Source: Armatimonadota bacterium
GTDB taxonomy: Bacteria; Armatimonadota; Chthonomonadetes; Chthonomonadales; CAJBBX01
Direction: 5' to 3'
Length of the DNA stretch: 64,000 bases
NCBI GenBank assembly: GCA_026392115.1
Contig: JAPLCQ010000076.1
Location: 1 to 64,000 of the forward strand
Shown here: positions 23,032 to 46,495 of the stretch, in pieces
Numbering within the stretch: the stretch's first letter is position 1
How the letters are laid out: each line of letters starts with the position of its first letter
Translations under genes and position numbers: made by a program
The notes under the pieces: model-generated
Told to the model about the DNA's origin: nothing
Databases searched by the model: none
The model's input: the letters and a program-made list of their open reading frames with translations, nothing else

Positions 23032-23073
23032 GCAGGTATCCCCGCCCCCGCCGCCGAACCTGAGGGGTGAACC
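23032..23073 (+). repeat. 42-bp direct repeat, left copy
   Basis: Identical to 23900-23941; begins GCAGGTATCCCC and ends GAGGGGTGAACC. Confidence 0.9.
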
Positions 23074-23084
23074 GCACAAACAGA

Positions 23085-23112
23085 AGCGCCCCCACCCGAA
23101 GGTGGGGGCGCT
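23085..23112 (+). terminator. Perfect 12-bp hairpin with CGAA tetraloop
   Basis: Arms 23085-23096 and 23101-23112 pair exactly around CGAA. It lies just inside the left end of the NYN cassette and would end transcripts from mgsA. A weaker 8-bp hairpin follows at 23117-23135. Confidence 0.7.
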
Positions 23113-23116
23113 GGGT

Positions 23117-23135
23117 CCGAAGATGCTATCTTCGG
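23117..23135 (+). other. 8-bp perfect hairpin
   Basis: CCGAAGAT (23117-23124) pairs with ATCTTCGG (23128-23135) around GCT, directly after the larger hairpin. It may be part of the terminator or of the NYN promoter region. Confidence 0.4.
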
Positions 23136-23207
23136 CGGTGTTGCTCGCATTATAGCGCACAGTCCACGAGGCGTCAACAGGGCGGCGGTCCGGAGCGAGG
23201 TGATCTA

Positions 23208-23843
23208 GTGGCGCAGGCTAGTCGCGGCATGGCAGTAGAGCGGGTGGCAGCATATATTGACGGTTTCAACTTGTACTTCGGCATGAGATCGTGCGGCTGG
23301 CGCCGCTACTACTGGCTCGACCCAACCAAGCTGGTCAGCCATATAGCACGTGCGGGAAGTCAGATTGTGCGCACGGTCTACTGCACGGCACGCATCAGCC
23401 GGCCTGAGGACAAACGTAGACGGCAACTGACCTACCTCGAGGCCCTCGAGTCATTGCCTGCCTGTGAGGTGCTCTATGGAAAGTACCAGGAGGAGCCGGC
23501 TCGATGCCGGACCTGCGGCGCGGAATGGACGGTGCCTAAGGAGAAGATGACCGACGCGCAACTCGTGGCATGCATTGTCAGTGATGCATTCCTTAATATC
23601 TACGATACAGCACTGGTTATATCGGCCGATGCTGACCTGGTGCCGGCCGTTCGCGCAGTGCAGGCCAACTTCGCGGCCAAGCAGATCGTGGCTGTCATGC
23701 CTCCAGGCCGAAAGTGCCAAGAGCTTCAGAACATTTGCTCGCAAACCAAACAGATCTGGGAAGACGCCTTGAAGACGAGTCAGCTCCCAGATGTGGTCCA
23801 CGGCTCTACCCATAGGTGGCAGCGGCCTCCTGAGTGGTCATAG
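23208..23843 (+). CDS. NYN-domain (PIN-like) RNase family protein
   Basis: A ~211-aa protein. The NYN fold is recognised from AAYIDGFNLYFG (first acidic site), then 'KEKMTDAQLVACIVSDAF' and 'TALVISADADLVPAVRAV' with the further catalytic Asp residues. A CRTCG pair in the middle may help bind a metal. NYN proteins are predicted RNases; some act in RNA processing and some in defence. GTG 23208 is chosen because AGGTGA precedes it; ATG 23229 is the alternative. The gene is clearly less GC-rich than its neighbours and lies alone between exact 42-bp repeats, so it looks acquired. Confidence 0.8.
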   Translation: MAQASRGMAVERVAAYIDGFNLYFGMRSCGWRRYYWLDPTKLVSHIARAGSQIVRTVYCTARISRPEDKRRRQLTYLEALESLPACEVLYGKYQEEPARCRTCGAEWTVPKEKMTDAQLVACIVSDAFLNIYDTALVISADADLVPAVRAVQANFAAKQIVAVMPPGRKCQELQNICSQTKQIWEDALKTSQLPDVVHGSTHRWQRPPEWS

Positions 23844-23899
23844 GCACGGCATCGTCGACGCCCGGTGGCAGAGCTACGTAGCCGCTGCGCTGACCCGTG

Positions 23900-23941
23900 G
23901 CAGGTATCCCCGCCCCCGCCGCCGAACCTGAGGGGTGAACC
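23900..23941 (+). repeat. 42-bp direct repeat, right copy
   Basis: Identical to 23032-23073. It directly precedes the URO-D-like gene, ending 22 bp before its ATG. Confidence 0.9.
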
Positions 23942-28364: not shown

Positions 28365-28377
28365 CGTCGTGGCCGCC

Positions 28378-28422
28378 GTTGACAGCACGGTCGACACGGT
28401 CAACGAGGTCAGCACGGTCAGG
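28378..28422 (+). repeat. Short imperfect tandem repeat of the GACACGGTCAA type
   Basis: Four imperfect copies of a 'gacacggtcaacgaggtcag' motif. Related phrases recur at 16056-16085, 49740-49760 and 49961-49982, always just after a rightward gene. Confidence 0.45.
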
Positions 28423-28504
28423 CGCTTTGGACTGACCCCCATCTCTGGGACAGTGGCCGATGGGGCGACGGTTGGCCCTGCCTCGACGGCATAGGGAGGT
28501 ACTC

Positions 28505-37052: not shown

Positions 37053-37252
37053 GGCGGCCCTCCCTGGCGGCAAGCGGACGGTACGGAATGGCTACGTTGT
37101 ACCCGCCGCCCATGGCCGTTCGGCCCCGTATCATGAGTAGTTCTACACGCTCATGAAGGTTGAGCCGGGCCCGGAATGTCGGCCCGCGAGGGGGCGCGGC
37201 CCCCGCAGCGGGTAACCTACGCGCGATCTGAACCCACGAACCGGAGGCCCCC
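37053..37252. promoter_or_regulatory. Divergent promoter region with paired TCATGA palindromes
   Basis: 200 bp between the leftward DUF2961 and rightward beta-helix genes. TCATGA occurs at 37131-37136 and 37151-37156, two helical turns apart, in an AT-richer patch. It could be an operator for both genes; evidence is only the spacing. Confidence 0.25.
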
Positions 37253-40200
37253 ATGCGCGAGACTGCGACCCTGTTGTTCACTTTCATATGCCTCGCCTGG
37301 CTCTCGGCGGCTTCGGGGGCCGCGGTGGAGCTCTATGTGGCGCCGAACGGCAACGACGCCTGGAGCGGACGCAAGCCCGCGCCGATCCGCAATGGCTCTG
37401 ACGGCCCCTTCGCCACGCTGGAGCGCGCCCGCGATGCCCTGCGCGCCCTTCGCGCCTCGGGCAAAGCCAGGGGGCCGGCCACCGTATGGCTCCGCGGGGG
37501 CCTCTACGAGCGTGCCTCGAGCTTCGCGCTGGAGGCGGAGGACGGCGGCGCGCCCGGCGCGCCCGTGGAATACCGCGCCGTCCGCGGCGAGGAGGTGCGC
37601 CTCTCCGGCGGGCGGACCGTGGGCGGCTGGAAGCCCGTCACCGATGCGGCCGTGCTGGCCCGCATACCAGAGGAGGCGCGCCCGCTGGTGCGCGTGGCCG
37701 ATTTGCGGGCCCAGGGCATCACGGACACCGGCGCCATGGCCCGGCGCGGCTTCGCCGCCGGCGGCGCGGCGTGCCTGGAGCTGGTCTATGCCGATACTCC
37801 CATGACGCCCGCCCGCTGGCCCAACGAGGGCTGGGCGACCATCGCGGCGGCGCCGGCCGGGCCCGACGGCGGCAGGTTCGCCTACACCGGCGACCGGCCC
37901 AGCCGCTGGACATCCGCCGAGGAGGCATGGGTCCACGGCTACTGGATGTATGACTGGGCCGACACCTACGAGAAGGTGGCCTCCATCGACCCGGCCAAAC
38001 GCGAGATCGCCACCGTGCCGCCCCACGGCGTCTACGGCTACGGACCCGGTCGCCGCTGGTACGTCCTGAACCTCATCGAGGAACTGGACGCGCCGGGCGA
38101 GTATTGGCTCGACCGCGCGGCGGGCCTCCTCTACTGCATCCCGCCTGCCGGCAAGTCCGGCCCCGCCGTGGTCACCATGGCCGCCGAGCCGCTCGTCACC
38201 CTCAAGGGCGCGCGCAACGTCACGCTGGCGGGGCTCATCCTGGAGAATGGCCGGGGCGACGGCCTGCACATGAAGGACTGCACCGACTGCGTCGTGGCCG
38301 GCTGCACGCTGCGCAACATGGGCGGCTCCGGCATGAGCGTCGAGGGCGGCAGCCGCTGTGGCGCTCGCTCCTGCGACATCTATGGCGTGGGCGAGACCGG
38401 CGTGCAGCTCTCCGGCGGCGACCGCATGACGCTGACACCGTCGGGCCACTTCGCCGAGAACTGCCACATCCACCACCACAGCCGCTGGTGCCGCACCTAC
38501 CGCCCGGCCATCGGCATGCAGGGCGTGGGCGTGCGCGCTTCGCACAACCTGATCGAAGACGGGCCGCACAACGCCATCCTGCTGGGCGGCAACGACCACG
38601 TCATCGAGTTCAACGATATCTCGCGGGTCTGCACCCAGACCGGCGACGCCGGCGCCGTCTACATGGGCCGCGACTGGGCCATGCGGGGCGTCGTGGTGCG
38701 CCACAACCGCTTCCACGACATCGGCCCCACCATCTCGGCCGGCCAGGAGGGGCGCTACACCGAGGTGATGGCCGTCTACCTCGACGACTGCTTCAGCGGC
38801 GGGACCATCGCGGGCAACCTCTTTCTGCGGGCCGGGCGCGCCATCATGCTGGGCGGCGGGCGCGACAACACGGTGGAGAACAACGTCTTCATCGACTGCA
38901 ACCCCTCGGTCCACATCGACCAGCGCGCCAAGGGCTGGGCCGCGGAGTACATGAAGCCCAACGGCGGCTGGTCCATCTTCGAGAACCTGAAGGCCGTGCC
39001 CTACAACCGCCCGCCCTACGACAAGTACCCGCACCTGGCGGCGATCCTCGAGGACGATCCGCCGGCCGCCAAGTACAACCGCATCGTCCGCAACATCCAT
39101 GTGGGCAAGGGGAAGTGGATCGACTGGCTCGACGGCCTGAATGATAAGGTGGTTGAGGCGACCGGTAACGCGACGGAGGGTGACCCCGGCTTCCTCAACG
39201 CCGCCGCCGGCGACTATCGCCTGAAGCCCGGCTCCCCGGCCCTCAAAGCCGGGTTCCAGCCCACGCTCTTCCACAAGGCCGGCCTCTACCGCGACGCCTA
39301 CCGGAAGACGCCGGCGGTGCGATACGGGTCCAGCGCCCGGAGTAACATAAAGGCGTCGGTACGAACTCGTCATCAGGAGGAGCCGCGAGTGGCTGATGTG
39401 CAGTCGGTCTGCAAGGCGTTTGAGCAGTGGTACGCGACGCTGCCGGTCCTGGGGGACGGCCTGGTCGCAAAGGGCAACATCGCGGGGTGCCTTGGCCTGA
39501 TCCAGAACATCCGGGATGGCGCCTCGCTGTCGCTGGACGACCACCTGACACCGAACAAGGGGCAGGTTCGTGGCGTCGGCGGTCCCAATGTCCGCCGCAT
39601 CTTGGCCCACTACGGCGAAGCTCGCCCGTTCGTGGCCGAGGGCGGCCGCACAAACCGGGGCCTGATCGCCACGGCTCAGGCGCTTCTCGGCACGTTGGAG
39701 GAGGCCGGGCTCGACGGCCTGAGCGCGGATGGGCGTGATGCCGCGCTGGTCGCCATGCAGGAGTTCCTGGTGGCCCGCGTCCGTGAGTACTTCGGGCTGC
39801 AACGCCTGAGGGTGACCTATGACGGGGGCAAGTCGACGGCCGAGTGCATCCGTGATCTGCTATCAGCCGCGAGGGAGCATGGCAAGGAAGGGCAGGTCGC
39901 CGAGTACCTCGTGGGGGCCAAGCTCCAACTCCGTTTCCCGGGTCTGACCGTCCGTAACACCAGCTACAGCACATCGGATGCCCAGACCCAGGCGCGCGGT
40001 GACTTCGAGGTGGGCACTACCGCGTTCCACGTCACCGTAGCACCCAACAGCGGGCACTACGCCAAGTGCCGGGCCAATGTGCGTGACGGCCTCCGGGTCT
40101 ACCTGCTGGTCCCGGAGCGAATGGTGGAGGGCGCCCGGCAGAACGCTGCCATTGAGATACCAGGCGTCATCGCGGCCGTGGCGCTTGAGGCCTTCATCGG

Positions 40201-40345
40201 ATGCAATGTGGACGAACTGGCCGAGTTCTCGGGCCCGGCCACTGCCCGCCAACTGGGCAAGATGCTCCGCCTCTACAACGAGAGGGTAGCCGCTGTGGAG
40301 ACCGACACGTCGGTCCTGCTGGATATCCCGGCAACGCTGGAGTAG
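37253..40345 (+). CDS. Secreted right-handed beta-helix protein whose frame runs into DUF4928
   Basis: Residues 1-23 are a signal peptide. The body to about residue 688 is a parallel beta-helix protein of the polysaccharide-lyase/epimerase-like type: 'ELYVAPNGNDAWSGRKPAP' at the start, repeated 'GNDHVIEFNDIS', 'VVVRHNRFHDIG' and 'NTVENNVFIDCNPSVHID' coils, then 'DPGFLNAAAGDYRLKPGSPA'. The native end has been displaced by an insertion at 39319. The original tail (PQPTGKE, stop 42225-42227) now lies 2.9 kb away. Without any stop the frame continues through 24 junction residues into DUF4928, giving a possible 1030-aa fusion. Because DUF4928 has its own start, the helix protein may be made only with this extension. 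Confidence 0.75.
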   Translation: MRETATLLFTFICLAWLSAASGAAVELYVAPNGNDAWSGRKPAPIRNGSDGPFATLERARDALRALRASGKARGPATVWLRGGLYERASSFALEAEDGGAPGAPVEYRAVRGEEVRLSGGRTVGGWKPVTDAAVLARIPEEARPLVRVADLRAQGITDTGAMARRGFAAGGAACLELVYADTPMTPARWPNEGWATIAAAPAGPDGGRFAYTGDRPSRWTSAEEAWVHGYWMYDWADTYEKVASIDPAKREIATVPPHGVYGYGPGRRWYVLNLIEELDAPGEYWLDRAAGLLYCIPPAGKSGPAVVTMAAEPLVTLKGARNVTLAGLILENGRGDGLHMKDCTDCVVAGCTLRNMGGSGMSVEGGSRCGARSCDIYGVGETGVQLSGGDRMTLTPSGHFAENCHIHHHSRWCRTYRPAIGMQGVGVRASHNLIEDGPHNAILLGGNDHVIEFNDISRVCTQTGDAGAVYMGRDWAMRGVVVRHNRFHDIGPTISAGQEGRYTEVMAVYLDDCFSGGTIAGNLFLRAGRAIMLGGGRDNTVENNVFIDCNPSVHIDQRAKGWAAEYMKPNGGWSIFENLKAVPYNRPPYDKYPHLAAILEDDPPAAKYNRIVRNIHVGKGKWIDWLDGLNDKVVEATGNATEGDPGFLNAAAGDYRLKPGSPALKAGFQPTLFHKAGLYRDAYRKTPAVRYGSSARSNIKASVRTRHQEEPRVADVQSVCKAFEQWYATLPVLGDGLVAKGNIAGCLGLIQNIRDGASLSLDDHLTPNKGQVRGVGGPNVRRILAHYGEARPFVAEGGRTNRGLIATAQALLGTLEEAGLDGLSADGRDAALVAMQEFLVARVREYFGLQRLRVTYDGGKSTAECIRDLLSAAREHGKEGQVAEYLVGAKLQLRFPGLTVRNTSYSTSDAQTQARGDFEVGTTAFHVTVAPNSGHYAKCRANVRDGLRVYLLVPERMVEGARQNAAIEIPGVIAAVALEAFIGCNVDELAEFSGPATARQLGKMLRLYNERVAAVETDTSVLLDIPATLE
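39289..39318 (+). repeat. 30-bp target duplication, left copy
   Basis: Encodes RDAYRKTPAV of the beta-helix C-terminus; exact match to 42173-42202. Confidence 0.9.
39389..40345 (+). CDS. DUF4928 protein, probable restriction component
   Basis: A 318-aa protein of a family found beside C5-methyltransferases. Landmarks are 'KGNIAGCLGLIQN' near the N-terminus, 'GGKSTAECIRDLL', and 'RGDFEVGTTAFHVTVAP', the conserved GDF...HVT stretch that may be part of a divergent nuclease site. No known catalytic function is proven; its position with Dcm and Vsr suggests the restriction endonuclease. GTG 39389 is preceded by AGGAGG at 39375-39380 with 8-nt spacing, a much better start than reading through from the beta-helix gene. 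It converges on the methyltransferase gene 95 bp away. Confidence 0.72.
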   Translation: MADVQSVCKAFEQWYATLPVLGDGLVAKGNIAGCLGLIQNIRDGASLSLDDHLTPNKGQVRGVGGPNVRRILAHYGEARPFVAEGGRTNRGLIATAQALLGTLEEAGLDGLSADGRDAALVAMQEFLVARVREYFGLQRLRVTYDGGKSTAECIRDLLSAAREHGKEGQVAEYLVGAKLQLRFPGLTVRNTSYSTSDAQTQARGDFEVGTTAFHVTVAPNSGHYAKCRANVRDGLRVYLLVPERMVEGARQNAAIEIPGVIAAVALEAFIGCNVDELAEFSGPATARQLGKMLRLYNERVAAVETDTSVLLDIPATLE

Positions 40346-40440
40346 CGTAACCCAGCCAGTGGCGATACGCCTGCCGGCAGCGCCCGGATGCGTTTGGGCG
40401 CTCCCAAACCGACGCGGAACCGGCCTCGGCTCCGGCGCCG

Positions 40441-41658
40441 CTAGACGCGATAGGCGTGCGTCGGCGCGTCGATGAGGTCACGGTATCTGGGTTCAAGGCA
40501 GTGCGTGGCGACCCATTCCACAACCGGAACACACACGGCATCACCGAACCCGAAGAGGGCCTGATTCAGTGGCACGTCGACGACGTAATCGTCGGCGCCC
40601 ATCAGCCTTGCGCACTCGCGCGGCGTCAGCAGACGCGTACGGTACCGGCCGTGTCCAGCCCGAAACAGAATCTGGCGGCCACTACCGCCGCGAGGCGTGC
40701 GCAAGCACCCTGCGACGCCGTCGGTCCGTAGCTCGGCCATACACTGGCCCTGTCGAACCCGGCGAAACACCGTCCCGTAAGTAACCATCGGGGCCTCAAT
40801 CATTGCTGAAGCAAGCGCCCGGTGCCGCTCGCTCATCTGACCAAGCAGGTAGGCGGCCCGGTCATCGCTCCACCACTCGGGAGCCGTTGCCGGCAGGTCC
40901 TCAAGTATGTCAGCCAGGTTCAGGCGGCGTGTCGGAGGGTCAGGCACATCCCGGATATCCCAATGAAGATCGCCATTGCGGAATATGAAGTCCATGAGCG
41001 CGGGCGGCCTGACAGCCGAGCCGCCGAACAGGTCCCGGTCTGCGACGCGGTCTGCCGAGCGGCGCTGCACGTTGGCGCCCACGATGAACATCCGTTGCCG
41101 GCTCTGTGGCACGAAGTGCGCCGCATCAACGACGAGCGCGTCAACGGCATACCCGAGCGCGTTCAGGCATTGGATCGCCTCACGCAGATCGGCGCCTCCC
41201 TTTGATGTCAGGAACCCGACGACATTCTCAAGCAGGACGAGCGGAGGCCGTCTGGCCTCCATCAGTTCCAGCATCCGCGCAAAGCCCCAGAAGGCGGCTG
41301 AGCCGCCGCTGTGCAGCCCTCCGCGCGCACCGGCGAGCGAGAGGTCCGTGCAAGGAAACGAGGCGGTCGCGAGGCTGGTCGTCGGCACCTGGTCAGGCGC
41401 CAACGCATGCACATCGCCAAGGACGAACAGACCACTGCTGTCACCGTAGTGGCCCGTGTAGAGTTCCAGTTTCTTGGCGTCGATATCGTTCGCGAAGACG
41501 GTGCGCCAGCCTGCGCGTTCCAGCCCCATGCGCATCAGGCCCATCCCGGCGAAATACTCGGCGACCGACTTCCCATCGTCGACTTCGCCACGGAGATCAC
41601 ATGGTGGAACAGCCGCGGCGGTGGCGGATCGCGCATACTCATGCGGGGTTGTGTGCAT
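40441..41658 (-). CDS. DNA (cytosine-5) methyltransferase
   Basis: A 405-aa C5-methyltransferase. Motif I EYFAGMGLMRMGLERAGW, motif IV FPCTDLSLAG with the catalytic Cys, motif VI LLENVVGF, motif VIII QSRQRMFIVG, and motif X FGFGDAVCVPVVEW (GDAV in place of GNAV). A target-recognition region lies between about residues 240 and 340. The recognition site cannot be read from sequence. It protects self DNA from the presumed DUF4928 nuclease. ATG 41658 is proposed, 66 bp from the divergent Vsr start; the longer frame to 41757 overlaps Vsr. Confidence 0.88.
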   Translation of the reverse strand: MHTTPHEYARSATAAAVPPCDLRGEVDDGKSVAEYFAGMGLMRMGLERAGWRTVFANDIDAKKLELYTGHYGDSSGLFVLGDVHALAPDQVPTTSLATASFPCTDLSLAGARGGLHSGGSAAFWGFARMLELMEARRPPLVLLENVVGFLTSKGGADLREAIQCLNALGYAVDALVVDAAHFVPQSRQRMFIVGANVQRRSADRVADRDLFGGSAVRPPALMDFIFRNGDLHWDIRDVPDPPTRRLNLADILEDLPATAPEWWSDDRAAYLLGQMSERHRALASAMIEAPMVTYGTVFRRVRQGQCMAELRTDGVAGCLRTPRGGSGRQILFRAGHGRYRTRLLTPRECARLMGADDYVVDVPLNQALFGFGDAVCVPVVEWVATHCLEPRYRDLIDAPTHAYRV

Positions 41659-41724
41659 TGGGCTACGGGCTCCCACTGGACATGCCTGACGGCTCACGAG
41701 CGAGCAGCACTGGAGGAGCACGTC

Positions 41725-42159
41725 GTGGATACGTACGGCGCCGATACCAGAAGCCACGTCATGCGGGCAGTCAGGTCAAAGGATACCACCCCGGAACTCC
41801 GCGTGAGGCGGTTGCTTCACGGAGCGGGTTACCGGTTCCGGGTTCATGTCGGTGGGCTTCCCGCCAAGCCTGACCTGGCATTCACACGAAGGCGCAAGGC
41901 GGTCTTGGTTCACGGGTGCTTCTGGCATCAACACCCGGGCTGTCGCGCCGCGGGCAGGCCGTCGAGCAACCGTGAGTACTGGGACAAGAAGCTCGACGGT
42001 AACGTTGGGCGCGACCGGTCGACCTTGTCGGCTCTCAATGACCTCGGCTGGGACGTACTCGTTGTGTGGGAGTGCGAGACACAGCGACACGAGATTCTGC
42101 GCGATCGCCTTGTAGCATTCCTGGGTCCGCCACGTTGGCCGGCAAGGCGACCTCAGTGA
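41725..42159 (+). CDS. vsr: Very short patch repair (Vsr) T:G mismatch endonuclease
   Basis: Nicks 5' of T in T:G mismatches made when 5-methylcytosine deaminates, countering mutation at Dcm sites. 144 aa from GTG 41725, which has GGAGGA 7 nt upstream. Family motifs are 'HVMRAVRSKDTTPELRVRR', 'GLPAKPDLAFTRRRKAVLVH' (catalytic Asp), 'GCFWHQHPGC' (His pair and zinc ligands), 'NREYWDKKLDGN' and 'WDVLVVWECE'. Pairing with the cytosine methyltransferase is typical. The stop lies 13 bp before the right repeat copy, so it marks the island end. Confidence 0.92.
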   Translation: MDTYGADTRSHVMRAVRSKDTTPELRVRRLLHGAGYRFRVHVGGLPAKPDLAFTRRRKAVLVHGCFWHQHPGCRAAGRPSSNREYWDKKLDGNVGRDRSTLSALNDLGWDVLVVWECETQRHEILRDRLVAFLGPPRWPARRPQ

Positions 42160-42172
42160 GGCCACGACCCAT

Positions 42173-42227
42173 CCGCGACGCCTACCGGAAGACGCCGGCG
42201 GTCCCGCAGCCGACCGGCAAGGAGTAG
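42173..42227 (+). pseudogene. Displaced C-terminal tail of the beta-helix gene
   Basis: Right copy of the 30-bp repeat followed by 25 bp of original sequence. In frame it reads DAYRKTPAVPQPTGKE then TAG (42225-42227). The AAGGAG that serves the next gene lies within these last codons, showing the ancestral operon structure. Confidence 0.85.
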
Positions 42228-42231
42228 CGAC

Positions 42232-45200
42232 ATGACCCGTGCCCCGTGGCTGGCCCTGGCAGCCGCGATCATCTTGCCGGCGCCGCCCTCGGTGGCCCAG
42301 ACCTGGAGCGCGCCCCTGCGCGGCTCCGCGTGGGTGGGCCAACCCTCGTGGGTGGGCAATCCCGCTCCTGCCGGCGGCTTCGGCGCCGAGGCGACCGAGC
42401 GGGGCGTCCGGCTTCGCGTGGCCGCGCCGGGCACGGGCATGAAGTTCCACTGGCGCCTGGCCGCCGAGGTCGACCCCGCCGCGGGGAGAGTCGTGACCCT
42501 CCGCTATCGCGCCAAGGGCATTTCGCGGCAGGCGCACTACGCGCTCTGCTTCCTCGGCGCGCCAAGGGTCGGCACAGATGACTACCTGCCGGCAATCGCG
42601 CCCGGCGAGCTCATTGCCGACACACGTTGGCACACCGCATGGGCCGACATGGCGCCGGTCGCCCGGAAGCTGAAGACGATCACCGGAGCGGCGTCGGACG
42701 TGCAGGCGGCAGGCGCCGGCGCCTGGCTGGAGATCGAGGCCATCGAGCTGACGGATGCGCCGCCCGCCGCCGGCCCGTGGGACGCCTGCACCCAACGGCC
42801 CGGCGCGGCCTTCGGCGAGGTGCAGCCGCTGCGGCTGGGCCCACAGGCCGCGCAGGCGCCCTTCGACCCGGCCATCCGCGCGGCGGCCGACGGCGGCATC
42901 ACGGTGGAGGGCGTTCCCTTCCGGCTGGGGCAGGCCCGGGCGCTGGTGACCGGCATGGCGGAGAAACAGACGGTGACCGTGGCCACCGACCGATGCGCCT
43001 CGGAGGTCTACCTGCTGCTGGAGGCCGACCTCACGGGCAGGGACGACGCCATCCACGGCGGCGGCGCGCTGCGGGCCATCCGCGACGTGGACCGCTTCCG
43101 CGTGCGCCTGTCCTACGCCGACGGCACGATCGACGAGCATCTGCCCGTGGGCCTCCCGGGCGGGCTTCCGGGCCTGGCCCAGGGCGCGCAGGCGCTGGCC
43201 GTGCCGGCGGACCCGCGGCGGCGGCTGGTCTCCGTGGGCGTGGTCGATGCCTGCGCCCAGGCATCGCTTCGGTTACTCGCAGTATCCGTGCGCGGGTCCG
43301 GCGCCCGCCTGGCCCGCCCCGACCTGCCGCCGGCAGGCTTGCCCGCGCATCGCGCCCCCGGGGCCGCGCCGGGCGGCTCCCGCCTCGCCCTCGCCGGCCG
43401 CCTGGTCCGGGTCACCGCGGGGCACTGCTCGGCGGAAATCGACTTCTCGGGCGTTCCAACGCTGCGGGGTCTCAAGGCGAGGCCCTCGGGCCGCACGCTC
43501 ATCGCCGCGCCGCGCCCTCTGCTACAGGTTGAGCTGGACGGCAAGCCGGCGCGCCTCGTGCCGGCCGCCGAGCCCGCCATGCACAGGGGCCATGCCGAGG
43601 CGACCTACCGCACCGAGGCCGACCCCGGCGTGTGTGTGCGCCTCGTCATCGCCCCTGTGCCCAATGGCTTCATGGCCTACGGCGACGTCTGGGGCGCCAC
43701 GGCGTCCCATCGGCTCGTCGTGCGCCTGTGCGTGGGGCCGTACACGCTGCCCGGCGGCGCGGCCGGGAGCTGGTACCTCTACCCCAAGCGCGGAGCGGCG
43801 CTGGACCATCGCGACTGCGCCTACTCCGAGCGCTACTCCGGGCTCTTCCCGCTGCAGTTCGTCGATACCTTCGCTCCGGCATCCGGCGTGGGCGTCAGCC
43901 TGCGCAGCGAGGACCGGGACTGCCTGCAGAAGCGCTACCTGTTGACCAAATCGGGCAGCGCCCTCACCGCCGCCGTCGAGCTTCGTGCCGACCTGCGGCC
44001 CGGCGGGACCTGCGAGCTGGCGCCCGTAGTGCTGGAGATCACGGACGGCCGCGCCTCCGCCGGGCTGGAGGCCTACCGCTCCTGGGTGGCCTCCTGGTAC
44101 CGGCCCATCGCCCCGCGCAAGCCCTGGTTCCGGCAGGTCTTCAACTTCCGGCAGCGCTTCCTCCATTGGCTCGACCCGCTGGACGACGGCAAGCGGATCG
44201 ACCTGCAGCGGGCCGTCACCGAGGCGAAGGCCGAGTTCGGCGGCATCGACTACCTCCACCTGTTCGACTGGGGCAACGCCGGTCCGCTGGGCCGCAGCTA
44301 CGCCAGGCCCGGAGACACCGAACCGTGGCCCTACCTGAGCGGCGGCAAGGAGGGTCTCGCCCGTGCCATGGCCGGCGTGAAGGCGCAGGGCATCCGCACG
44401 GGGCTTTACATCGAGGGCTACCTGCTGGAGAGCAACGGGAAGCTGGGCAAGACGCCCGAGGCGAGCCGGTGGCAGATCCTGAGCCGGCAGGGCGCGCCCG
44501 CCTTCTATCCCGAAAGCACCGAACGCTTCATCTGCCCCGCCGTGGAGCCGTGGCGCGGCATCCAGGCGAAGACCTACGCCGACGCTCTGGCTAACCTGAG
44601 CCCCAATGGAATGTACGTCGACGAGTTCGGTTTCGGCGACGAGGGCAAGGACTGCTGGGCGCCCAACCACGGCCACGGCGTGCCGAGCTACTCGGTGACG
44701 GCCGAGAGCGGCATGCTGGCGCGCATCCGCCGGGCGGTGGGTCCAGAGGTCGCCATCTACTCCGAGGAGACGCCCGTCGATGTGAACTCGGAGATGCAGG
44801 ACGGCTCCTTCACCTACGCCATGAACCAGGCGTACGGCGCCGCGACCCGCGCCCCGCTGAACGCCGCGCGCTTCTGCCTGCCCGGCTTCAAGACCATCGA
44901 GATCCTCTACTGCGACCAGCCCACCGCCTCCTGGGCAACGGGCGTCAAGCAGGCCTTCTTCAACGGCGAGGCGCTCTGGCTGGAAGGCCCCGCCACCGAG
45001 TGGTTCGCGCCGGAGACCCGGGCGGCCATCCGCCGTTGCTACGCCATCCTGCACGGCCACAGCCGCACCTTCGGCCTGGGCCAAGCCGACCCGCTGGTCG
45101 CGACGCTGAAGCCGGGCCTCTACGCCAACCGCTTCCGCCTGGGCGGCGAGACGATCTACACCCTCTACAACGCCACGCCCGCCACCCTCCGCGGCGACCT

Positions 45201-45345
45201 GCTGGCCGTAACCGCAAGCCCCGCCGCCCGCGTCGACAACCTATGGCAAGGCGCCCCGGCGCGGAGGCGGCGGCAAGGCGGCAAAGCCGTCATAGCAGGC
45301 GAGATCGGCCCGTACGACGTGGGGTGCGTGCGGGTGCGGCAGTGA
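42232..45345 (+). CDS. Secreted TIM-barrel glycoside-hydrolase-like protein (DUF6259 type)
   Basis: A 1037-aa protein with a signal peptide (cut near Val-Ala-Gln, residue 22). A carbohydrate-binding-like beta domain (~25-180) is followed by further beta domains and a barrel near residues 640-930. The barrel shows 'IDYLHLFDWGNAGPLG', 'GIRTGLYIEGYLLES', 'NGMYVDEFGFGDEGKDC' (candidate nucleophile Asp) and 'AIYSEETPVD' (candidate acid/base Glu). The pattern recalls clan GH-D-like hydrolases and DUF6259 proteins; specificity unknown. AAGGAG lies 7 nt before the ATG, inside the old beta-helix tail. The RM island has cut it off from its original operon partner. Confidence 0.62.
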   Translation: MTRAPWLALAAAIILPAPPSVAQTWSAPLRGSAWVGQPSWVGNPAPAGGFGAEATERGVRLRVAAPGTGMKFHWRLAAEVDPAAGRVVTLRYRAKGISRQAHYALCFLGAPRVGTDDYLPAIAPGELIADTRWHTAWADMAPVARKLKTITGAASDVQAAGAGAWLEIEAIELTDAPPAAGPWDACTQRPGAAFGEVQPLRLGPQAAQAPFDPAIRAAADGGITVEGVPFRLGQARALVTGMAEKQTVTVATDRCASEVYLLLEADLTGRDDAIHGGGALRAIRDVDRFRVRLSYADGTIDEHLPVGLPGGLPGLAQGAQALAVPADPRRRLVSVGVVDACAQASLRLLAVSVRGSGARLARPDLPPAGLPAHRAPGAAPGGSRLALAGRLVRVTAGHCSAEIDFSGVPTLRGLKARPSGRTLIAAPRPLLQVELDGKPARLVPAAEPAMHRGHAEATYRTEADPGVCVRLVIAPVPNGFMAYGDVWGATASHRLVVRLCVGPYTLPGGAAGSWYLYPKRGAALDHRDCAYSERYSGLFPLQFVDTFAPASGVGVSLRSEDRDCLQKRYLLTKSGSALTAAVELRADLRPGGTCELAPVVLEITDGRASAGLEAYRSWVASWYRPIAPRKPWFRQVFNFRQRFLHWLDPLDDGKRIDLQRAVTEAKAEFGGIDYLHLFDWGNAGPLGRSYARPGDTEPWPYLSGGKEGLARAMAGVKAQGIRTGLYIEGYLLESNGKLGKTPEASRWQILSRQGAPAFYPESTERFICPAVEPWRGIQAKTYADALANLSPNGMYVDEFGFGDEGKDCWAPNHGHGVPSYSVTAESGMLARIRRAVGPEVAIYSEETPVDVNSEMQDGSFTYAMNQAYGAATRAPLNAARFCLPGFKTIEILYCDQPTASWATGVKQAFFNGEALWLEGPATEWFAPETRAAIRRCYAILHGHSRTFGLGQADPLVATLKPGLYANRFRLGGETIYTLYNATPATLRGDLLAVTASPAARVDNLWQGAPARRRRQGGKAVIAGEIGPYDVGCVRVRQ

Positions 45346-45381
45346 GGAGATGAGGAGGGGCCGTCGCCGCTGACCCGGTGG

Positions 45382-45401
45382 ATCGGGCCTCCGTGCCCGA
45401 T
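45382..45401 (+). repeat. Dispersed palindrome, compensatory variant
   Basis: ATCGGGC-CTCCGT-GCCCGAT: relative to the common core both outer bases have changed (C-G to A-T), keeping the stem intact. Confidence 0.7.
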
Positions 45402-45416
45402 TCCGAAGGGCTGTGG

Positions 45417-45475
45417 TCCGTGCCCGTCCGTGCGGGTCCGTGTCCGTCCGTGTCCGTCGGTGCCCGTCCGTGTCG
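45417..45475 (+). repeat. Tandem GTCCGTG-type short repeat
   Basis: About nine imperfect copies of a 6-8 bp TCCGTG/CCCG unit. An inverted counterpart (CACGGAC units) lies at 46496-46537, across the PIN cassette. Non-coding in appearance. Confidence 0.6.
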
Positions 45476-45489
45476 GCGGGCCTGGAGGA

Positions 45490-45509
45490 CTCGGGCACGG
45501 AGGCCCGAG
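45490..45509 (-). repeat. Dispersed palindrome, inverted copy
   Basis: Same core as 10589-10608 but inverted (loop ACGGAG). With 45382-45401 it brackets the tandem repeat. Confidence 0.7.
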
Positions 45510-45519
45510 CCACCGAATG

Positions 45520-45685
45520 AGGGGCGCGCGCCGTCGTCAGAGCCAACGGGGTAACGCCGCGCCGGTTCGGCGCCCGGGTAGACGACGAAACGCCGCTCCG
45601 TCGCCACGTCGTCGCGCGCGATGTGGAAGCCCTTCTCCGGCCTTGGCGAGAGGCTGCGCTTCACCTCCGCCGCCCGCTGCGCGCT
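45520..45685 (-). pseudogene. C-terminal scrap of an AAA ATPase (DUF4143 type)
   Basis: On the minus strand the frame reads EVKRSLSPRPEKGFHIARDD then RRFVVYPG, the standard C-terminal end of archaeal-type AAA/DUF4143 ATPases. A TAG at 45686-45688 and the PIN cassette repeat cut it off upstream. It dissolves into the dispersed palindrome downstream. Only ~55 residues survive. Identity is by memory of the family's C-terminal motif. Confidence 0.55.
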
Positions 45686-45695
45686 CTACAGGGGA

Positions 45696-45716
45696 TGAAG
45701 GGGCAGGGCGGGGCCT
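45696..45716 (+). repeat. 21-bp direct repeat, left copy (PIN cassette)
   Basis: Exact match to 46475-46495; overlaps the PIN gene stop codon (45715-45717). Confidence 0.7.
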
Positions 45717-46406: not shown

Positions 46407-46474
46407 CGTGGGTTCTCCGTAACCCATTGTGGCACACGCCCGCCGTGGCGCGCTGGACCTCGGTGAGGCGGGGG

Positions 46475-46495
46475 TGAAGGGGCAGGGCGGGGCCT
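46475..46495 (+). repeat. 21-bp direct repeat, right copy (PIN cassette)
   Basis: Exact match to 45696-45716; lies upstream of the antitoxin promoter. Confidence 0.7.

Follow-up and report, generated by a model that had tools for sequence, protein, structure and literature searches.

The locus raises the question of how a restriction-modification (RM) island came to lie in the last codons of a beta-helix gene, and whether its two bracketing repeats record a recent insertion or an old one. The window, by which we mean the whole stretch of 64,000 nucleotides analysed from the genome of an Armatimonadota bacterium, was compared with two congeners, G003 (L026, CAJBBX010000149) and G002 (L027, CAISJD010000138), whose DNA identity to the window is 93% and 87%, respectively; the window's own genome is G000, which its nearest named relatives mark as Chthonomonas-like, and, to judge from the record titles, all three genus genomes are metagenome-assembled. 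With a probability of about 0.85, the best explanation is an old insertion of the RM island at the end of the gene, in which about 44 bp of the target were duplicated and the two copies were later partly homogenised. The coordinates of the features are given in Table 1.

Table 1. Features of the window at the RM island and at the HEC-09 cassette (positions are those of the window).
Feature	Position	Strand	Evidence or remark
Left copy of the HEC-09 target duplication, 42 bp, exact	23032..23073	+	Single in G003:C171 13878-13919
Insert of 826 bp with one NYN-domain gene (ORF 23067-23843, +), PADLOC HEC-09	23074..23899		PF01936 1e-11; PDLC04163 6e-67
Right copy of the HEC-09 42-bp duplication	23900..23941	+	
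Interrupted beta-helix gene, up to and including the first repeat	37253..39318	+	PF13229 2e-18
Left copy of the putative ancestral ~44-bp target duplication, the 3' end of the beta-helix gene	39275..39318	+	39289-39318 exact
Inserted RM island, 2.84 kb	39319..42158		GC 0.65 vs 0.69 in the flank; same boundaries in G003
DUF4928, predicted cognate type II restriction endonuclease	39389..40345	+	PF16280 4e-76; PADLOC REase_II PDLC03543 1.7e-46
Dcm-type C5-cytosine methyltransferase	40441..41757	-	PF00145 4e-41; PADLOC MTase_II 2e-114
Vsr mismatch endonuclease	41725..42159	+	PF03852 2e-26; TIGR00632 2e-39
Right copy of the putative target duplication	42159..42202	+	5' part decayed, 3' 30 bp exact
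Orphaned beta-helix tail (PQPTGKE, TAG), which includes the AAGGAG for the downstream gene	42203..42227	+	
DUF6259 gene, once next in the beta-helix operon	42232..45345	+	PF19773 2e-11

The sequence-only reading had described an exact 30-bp direct repeat on either side of the island and a pre-insertion gene that could be recovered in full, and our analysis bears out both descriptions. The repeat (39289-39318 and 42173-42202) is identical at 30/30 positions, and its sequence is absent elsewhere in the genome (5.72 Mb searched). Deletion of 39319-42202 yields 696 codons followed by TAG at 42225-42227, four bases 5' of the ATG at 42232, with AAGGAG at 42219-42224. As it stands, no stop codon ends the beta-helix ORF, which reads through in frame to the end of DUF4928 (ORF 37253-40345, 1030 aa), unlike in G003, where a TAG immediately 3' of the repeat closes the frame. 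The reconstructed C-terminus is about as long as the tails of several homologues of the family (GLYKSPDRATWPVVSEVRAK and GLYKDAYRTALPKRDPLP, each ending at the stop).

The gene content of the insert also proved to be as first described, namely DUF4928, the Dcm-type methyltransferase and Vsr, with no other recognisable gene, and the stop codon of Vsr is located at the right edge of the insert. DUF4928 probably starts at the GTG at 39389, judging from the AGGAGGA upstream. In Nocardia, Burkholderiaceae and other Armatimonadota, DUF4928 adjoins a Dcm-type methyltransferase, nearly always together with Vsr; on this neighbourhood and the PADLOC match, the most likely prediction for DUF4928 is a role as the cognate endonuclease. 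The fold modelled for the protein (pLDDT 86) gave no confident PDB match by fold or by sequence. In the genome of another Armatimonadota bacterium (L181 7325-8965), Vsr and the Dcm-type methyltransferase are fused in one ORF beside DUF4928.

Comparison within the genus shows that the island is present in 3/3 genomes, beside the same neighbouring gene. In G003, it is bounded by its own 42-bp repeat (41/42 identical); in G002, the right junction, next to the DUF6259 gene on a short contig, is as in the window, and the left junction lies beyond the contig end. DUF4928 was not found in the 28 other genomes of the class that were searched. Our search returned no uninterrupted beta-helix/DUF6259 operon and no syntenic operon in other genera, in which the beta-helix homologues (about 43-56%) have different gene neighbours.

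The dS values against G003 were 0.18-0.27 for the island and 0.16-0.19 for the flanks, and those against G002 were 0.51-0.55 and 0.27-0.29, respectively. Since the dS of the island equals or exceeds that of the flanking genes, the island dates back at least to the species split. Of the original claim, insertion with target duplication is therefore supported, whereas a recent event is contradicted by the presence of the island in both sister species and by these dS values.

It should be noted that a conserved island with no empty-site relative, which the sequence-only reading had counted against insertion, is what we found at this locus (3/3 genomes). The insertion itself is not refuted by this pattern, because the duplicated segment is the coding 3' end of a gene on one side and non-coding on the other, and because three further loci of this genome, for which sister species have the empty site, show the same kind of event.

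The 8.4-kb block that comprises the beta-helix gene, the RM island and the DUF6259 gene (window 37196-45573) is colinear with G003:C149 41031-49397, and the sequence outside it is unmatched. The upstream flank of the G003 block matches contig C116 of the window's genome, and the block thus stands in different contexts among the congeners. Elsewhere in the window, synteny with G003:C171 and G002:C84 ends at about 28375-28429, suggesting a breakpoint or a large island in the window genome.

The five available copies of the repeat align gap-free over about 44 bp, and their comparison suggests an ancestral target duplication of about that length. The right-copy-specific state CATCC is common to the window and G002, as would be expected from one old insertion; other states unite the two copies of a single genome, namely GCCGGCGGT for the window and CTATACC for G003, as would be expected from later conversion between the copies. 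Assuming a divergence of ~12% between copies and a rough rate, in a test that turns on three or four sites, we estimate the chance of 0/30 or at most 1/42 differences between the copies at 0.02-0.03 in each genome, which is suggestive of partial homogenisation by recombination after insertion. The exact 30 bp are best read as the homogenised remnant of the 44-bp duplication and not as the original scar, so the notion of a fresh scar was mistaken, and an exact repeat need not signal a recent insertion.

At least seven defence or toxin-antitoxin cassettes of the window's genome, the RM island of the window included, are bounded by long direct repeats, and no recognised transposase or integrase is present in any of these seven. 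At three of the other loci, which carry an RM island on C29, HEC-09 and HicBA, the target is single in a sister species. The C29 cassette is a Vsr RM island whose repeat (93/93 bp) is the 3' end of a fumarylacetoacetate-hydrolase gene; both G003 and G002 have this target once, with the flanks joined. The reconstructed empty site of HEC-09 can be aligned with G003 along 1132 bp, interrupted by a single gap, and the HEC-09 insert is also absent from G002.

The HicBA cassette on C134 has a repeat of 77/77 bp; in G002, its target occurs once and the upstream flank is 1.4 kb more distant, and the G003 locus is rearranged and also contains HicBA. HicA has a Pfam match (1.3e-9), and its putative partner is read as HicB from a sequence with no Pfam match. 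At these three loci, the two copies of each pair match perfectly, yet they depart from the targets in the sister species (by 4/89 and 8/92 at the C29 RM island, by 1/42 and 4/40 at HEC-09 and by 7 at HicBA), and for this reason both copies would derive from the host's own target.

Candidate cassettes of the same kind are a PIN pair (C7), PDC-M26 (C24) and a Panacea pair (C1), with repeats of 53/55, 71/72 and 67/70, respectively, all of which cover the 3' end of the adjoining gene. Besides the island of the window, the genome contains two Vsr islands, the one on C29 and an Eco29kI-type island on C153 (L124 5104-7787), where ~35-46 bp of intergenic DNA were replaced and no duplication occurred.

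About 1.3 Mb of the window genome was scanned for repeat pairs, which were sorted by eye into insertions, coding repeats and REP-like palindromes. In the scanned part, two-copy repeats of the target-duplication kind that enclose genes lie mostly around defence or toxin-antitoxin cargo. The cargo is not exclusively defensive, since in a weaker case (L251) a 27/28 repeat surrounds an SGNH-hydrolase-like ORF. The repeats of L053 were rejected as a duplication because they are dispersed palindromic intergenic repeats, and the other pairs that we set aside are coding repeats, REP-like palindromes and a tRNA-Gly island. The latter (L252 2165-8076, G000:C8) measures ~5.8 kb, lies at a tRNA-Gly gene, has a repeat of 57 bp (56 identical) and serves as a contrast case. 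In the window, a purine-rich 26-bp repeat (45691-45716 and 46470-46495, 25 identical) tightly encloses a PIN toxin/antitoxin-like pair just downstream of the DUF6259 gene; it is possibly another target duplication.

Among Vsr-bearing loci, bracketing repeats were observed at 3/127, which is near the rate of 1.4% for random positions, so a rule that Vsr islands always carry such repeats was rejected. In 1.27 Mb of Vsr neighbourhoods from outside the genus, there are two clean candidates that enclose genes, both toxin-antitoxin-like. In a Hydrogenedentes MAG (L040), a perfect 100-bp repeat brackets a Panacea gene, and in Sedimenticola hydrogenitrophicus (L098), a 66/68 repeat brackets an XRE-containing pair.

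Several other explanations of the junctions have to be weighed against an old insertion with target duplication. It is scarcely credible that the repeat is a product of chance or of metagenome assembly: the genus genomes are indeed metagenome-assembled, but an exact 30-mer pair at such spacing is unexpected, and each sister species, assembled separately, has the island with a distinct version of the repeat. If the island had entered this site separately in each species, in place of one ancestral insertion followed by homogenisation, the lineage-specific bases common to both copies within a genome would be accounted for; however, the boundaries in the window and in G003 are identical, island and flanks diverge alike from G003, and the right-copy-specific state is common to the window and G002, which makes repeated insertion unlikely.

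Site-specific or Campbell-type integration of a circular element, which carried the RM genes together with a copy of the gene's 3' end so that one copy of the repeat is donor DNA, agrees with the position of the island, as such elements typically enter at the 3' end of a gene and are flanked by a direct repeat, and the tRNA-Gly island offers a look-alike in the same genome. Yet no insert examined contains an integrase domain, the targets of the different cases are unrelated, and the identity of the copies at the three other loci, together with their difference from the sister targets, indicates that host DNA was duplicated; we consider integration improbable. Still harder to sustain is a composite or non-autonomous transposon mobilised by a transposase from elsewhere. 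Transposases can act in trans, and a 9-bp inverted word lies close to the ends of the HicBA insert, but the duplications measure 42 to 93 bp, a terminal motif is not common to the inserts, and the inverted repeats are unconvincing.

An old insertion that duplicated its target therefore remains our preferred reading, and the mechanism has to account for duplications of variable length (42-93 bp where the target is single in the sisters) and for insert ends that, among the inserts compared, have no shared terminal motif and no convincing inverted repeats. Variable lengths, motif-free ends and the likeness of the copies argue that the host's own target was duplicated, with neither imported repeats nor a standard transposase. 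Two routes for the joining step seem most likely. In one, a fragment would be captured at a break with nicks tens of bases apart, and the overhangs would be filled in; in the other, a replication fork would switch template onto the cassette and then back to a point upstream, as in repair replication. A search of 13 genomes (the window genome and relatives) found no Ku, which disfavours classical end joining, and Ku-dependent end joining was accordingly set aside. The location at the 3' ends of genes probably reflects a filter, as a gene survives where the duplication spans its end.

Whether these insertions represent a general, transposase-free route for small addictive or defensive cassettes (RM, toxin-antitoxin, and single-gene and multi-gene phage defence), driven by repair or replication and unusually active in this Armatimonadota genus, is a proposal to which we give even odds. 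The set of defined junctions (at least seven cassettes, three with empty sites in sister species) can be used for testing mechanisms of recombinase-free cassette entry.

Passages in PMC3874152, citing Nobusato 2000 and Furuta 2010, state that some RM systems insert with long, variable target duplications (of the order of 100 bp), and passages in PMC3031569, PMC3154945 and PMC1643837 agree on long target duplications for RM systems; the original reports cited are Nobusato et al. 2000, Gene 259:99, and Furuta et al. 2010, NAR 38:2428. A partial search of the literature found no account of long target duplications around toxin-antitoxin or other defence cassettes.

Compared with known systems, the island shares with integrase-type islands at tRNA genes or gene 3' ends a direct repeat that corresponds to a gene 3' end, but it has no tyrosine or serine recombinase, there is no common target, and at the loci tested the host's own allele was duplicated. 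Target duplication is likewise a feature of IS elements and DNA transposons; here, however, there is no transposase, inverted ends are lacking, and the duplications are far longer and variable. With type II RM systems that include Vsr, the locus has in common the same three-gene set of adjacent C5 methyltransferase, endonuclease and Vsr, with the difference that the endonuclease role of DUF4928 is predicted from its match to a PADLOC REase model.

Taken together, the closest likeness is to RM insertion with long target duplication, in which only RM genes lie within a long direct duplication of the target and no transposase or integrase is linked. Relative to the published RM insertions as those passages describe them, the present case comes from a genus of Armatimonadota, is an old event and has repeats that look homogenised; in addition, a single genome has this scar around toxin-antitoxin, HEC-09 and PDC-M26 cassettes as well. 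Long target duplication, known for RM systems, is thus extended here to toxin-antitoxin and other defence cassettes, which widens the published pattern to other defence cargo.
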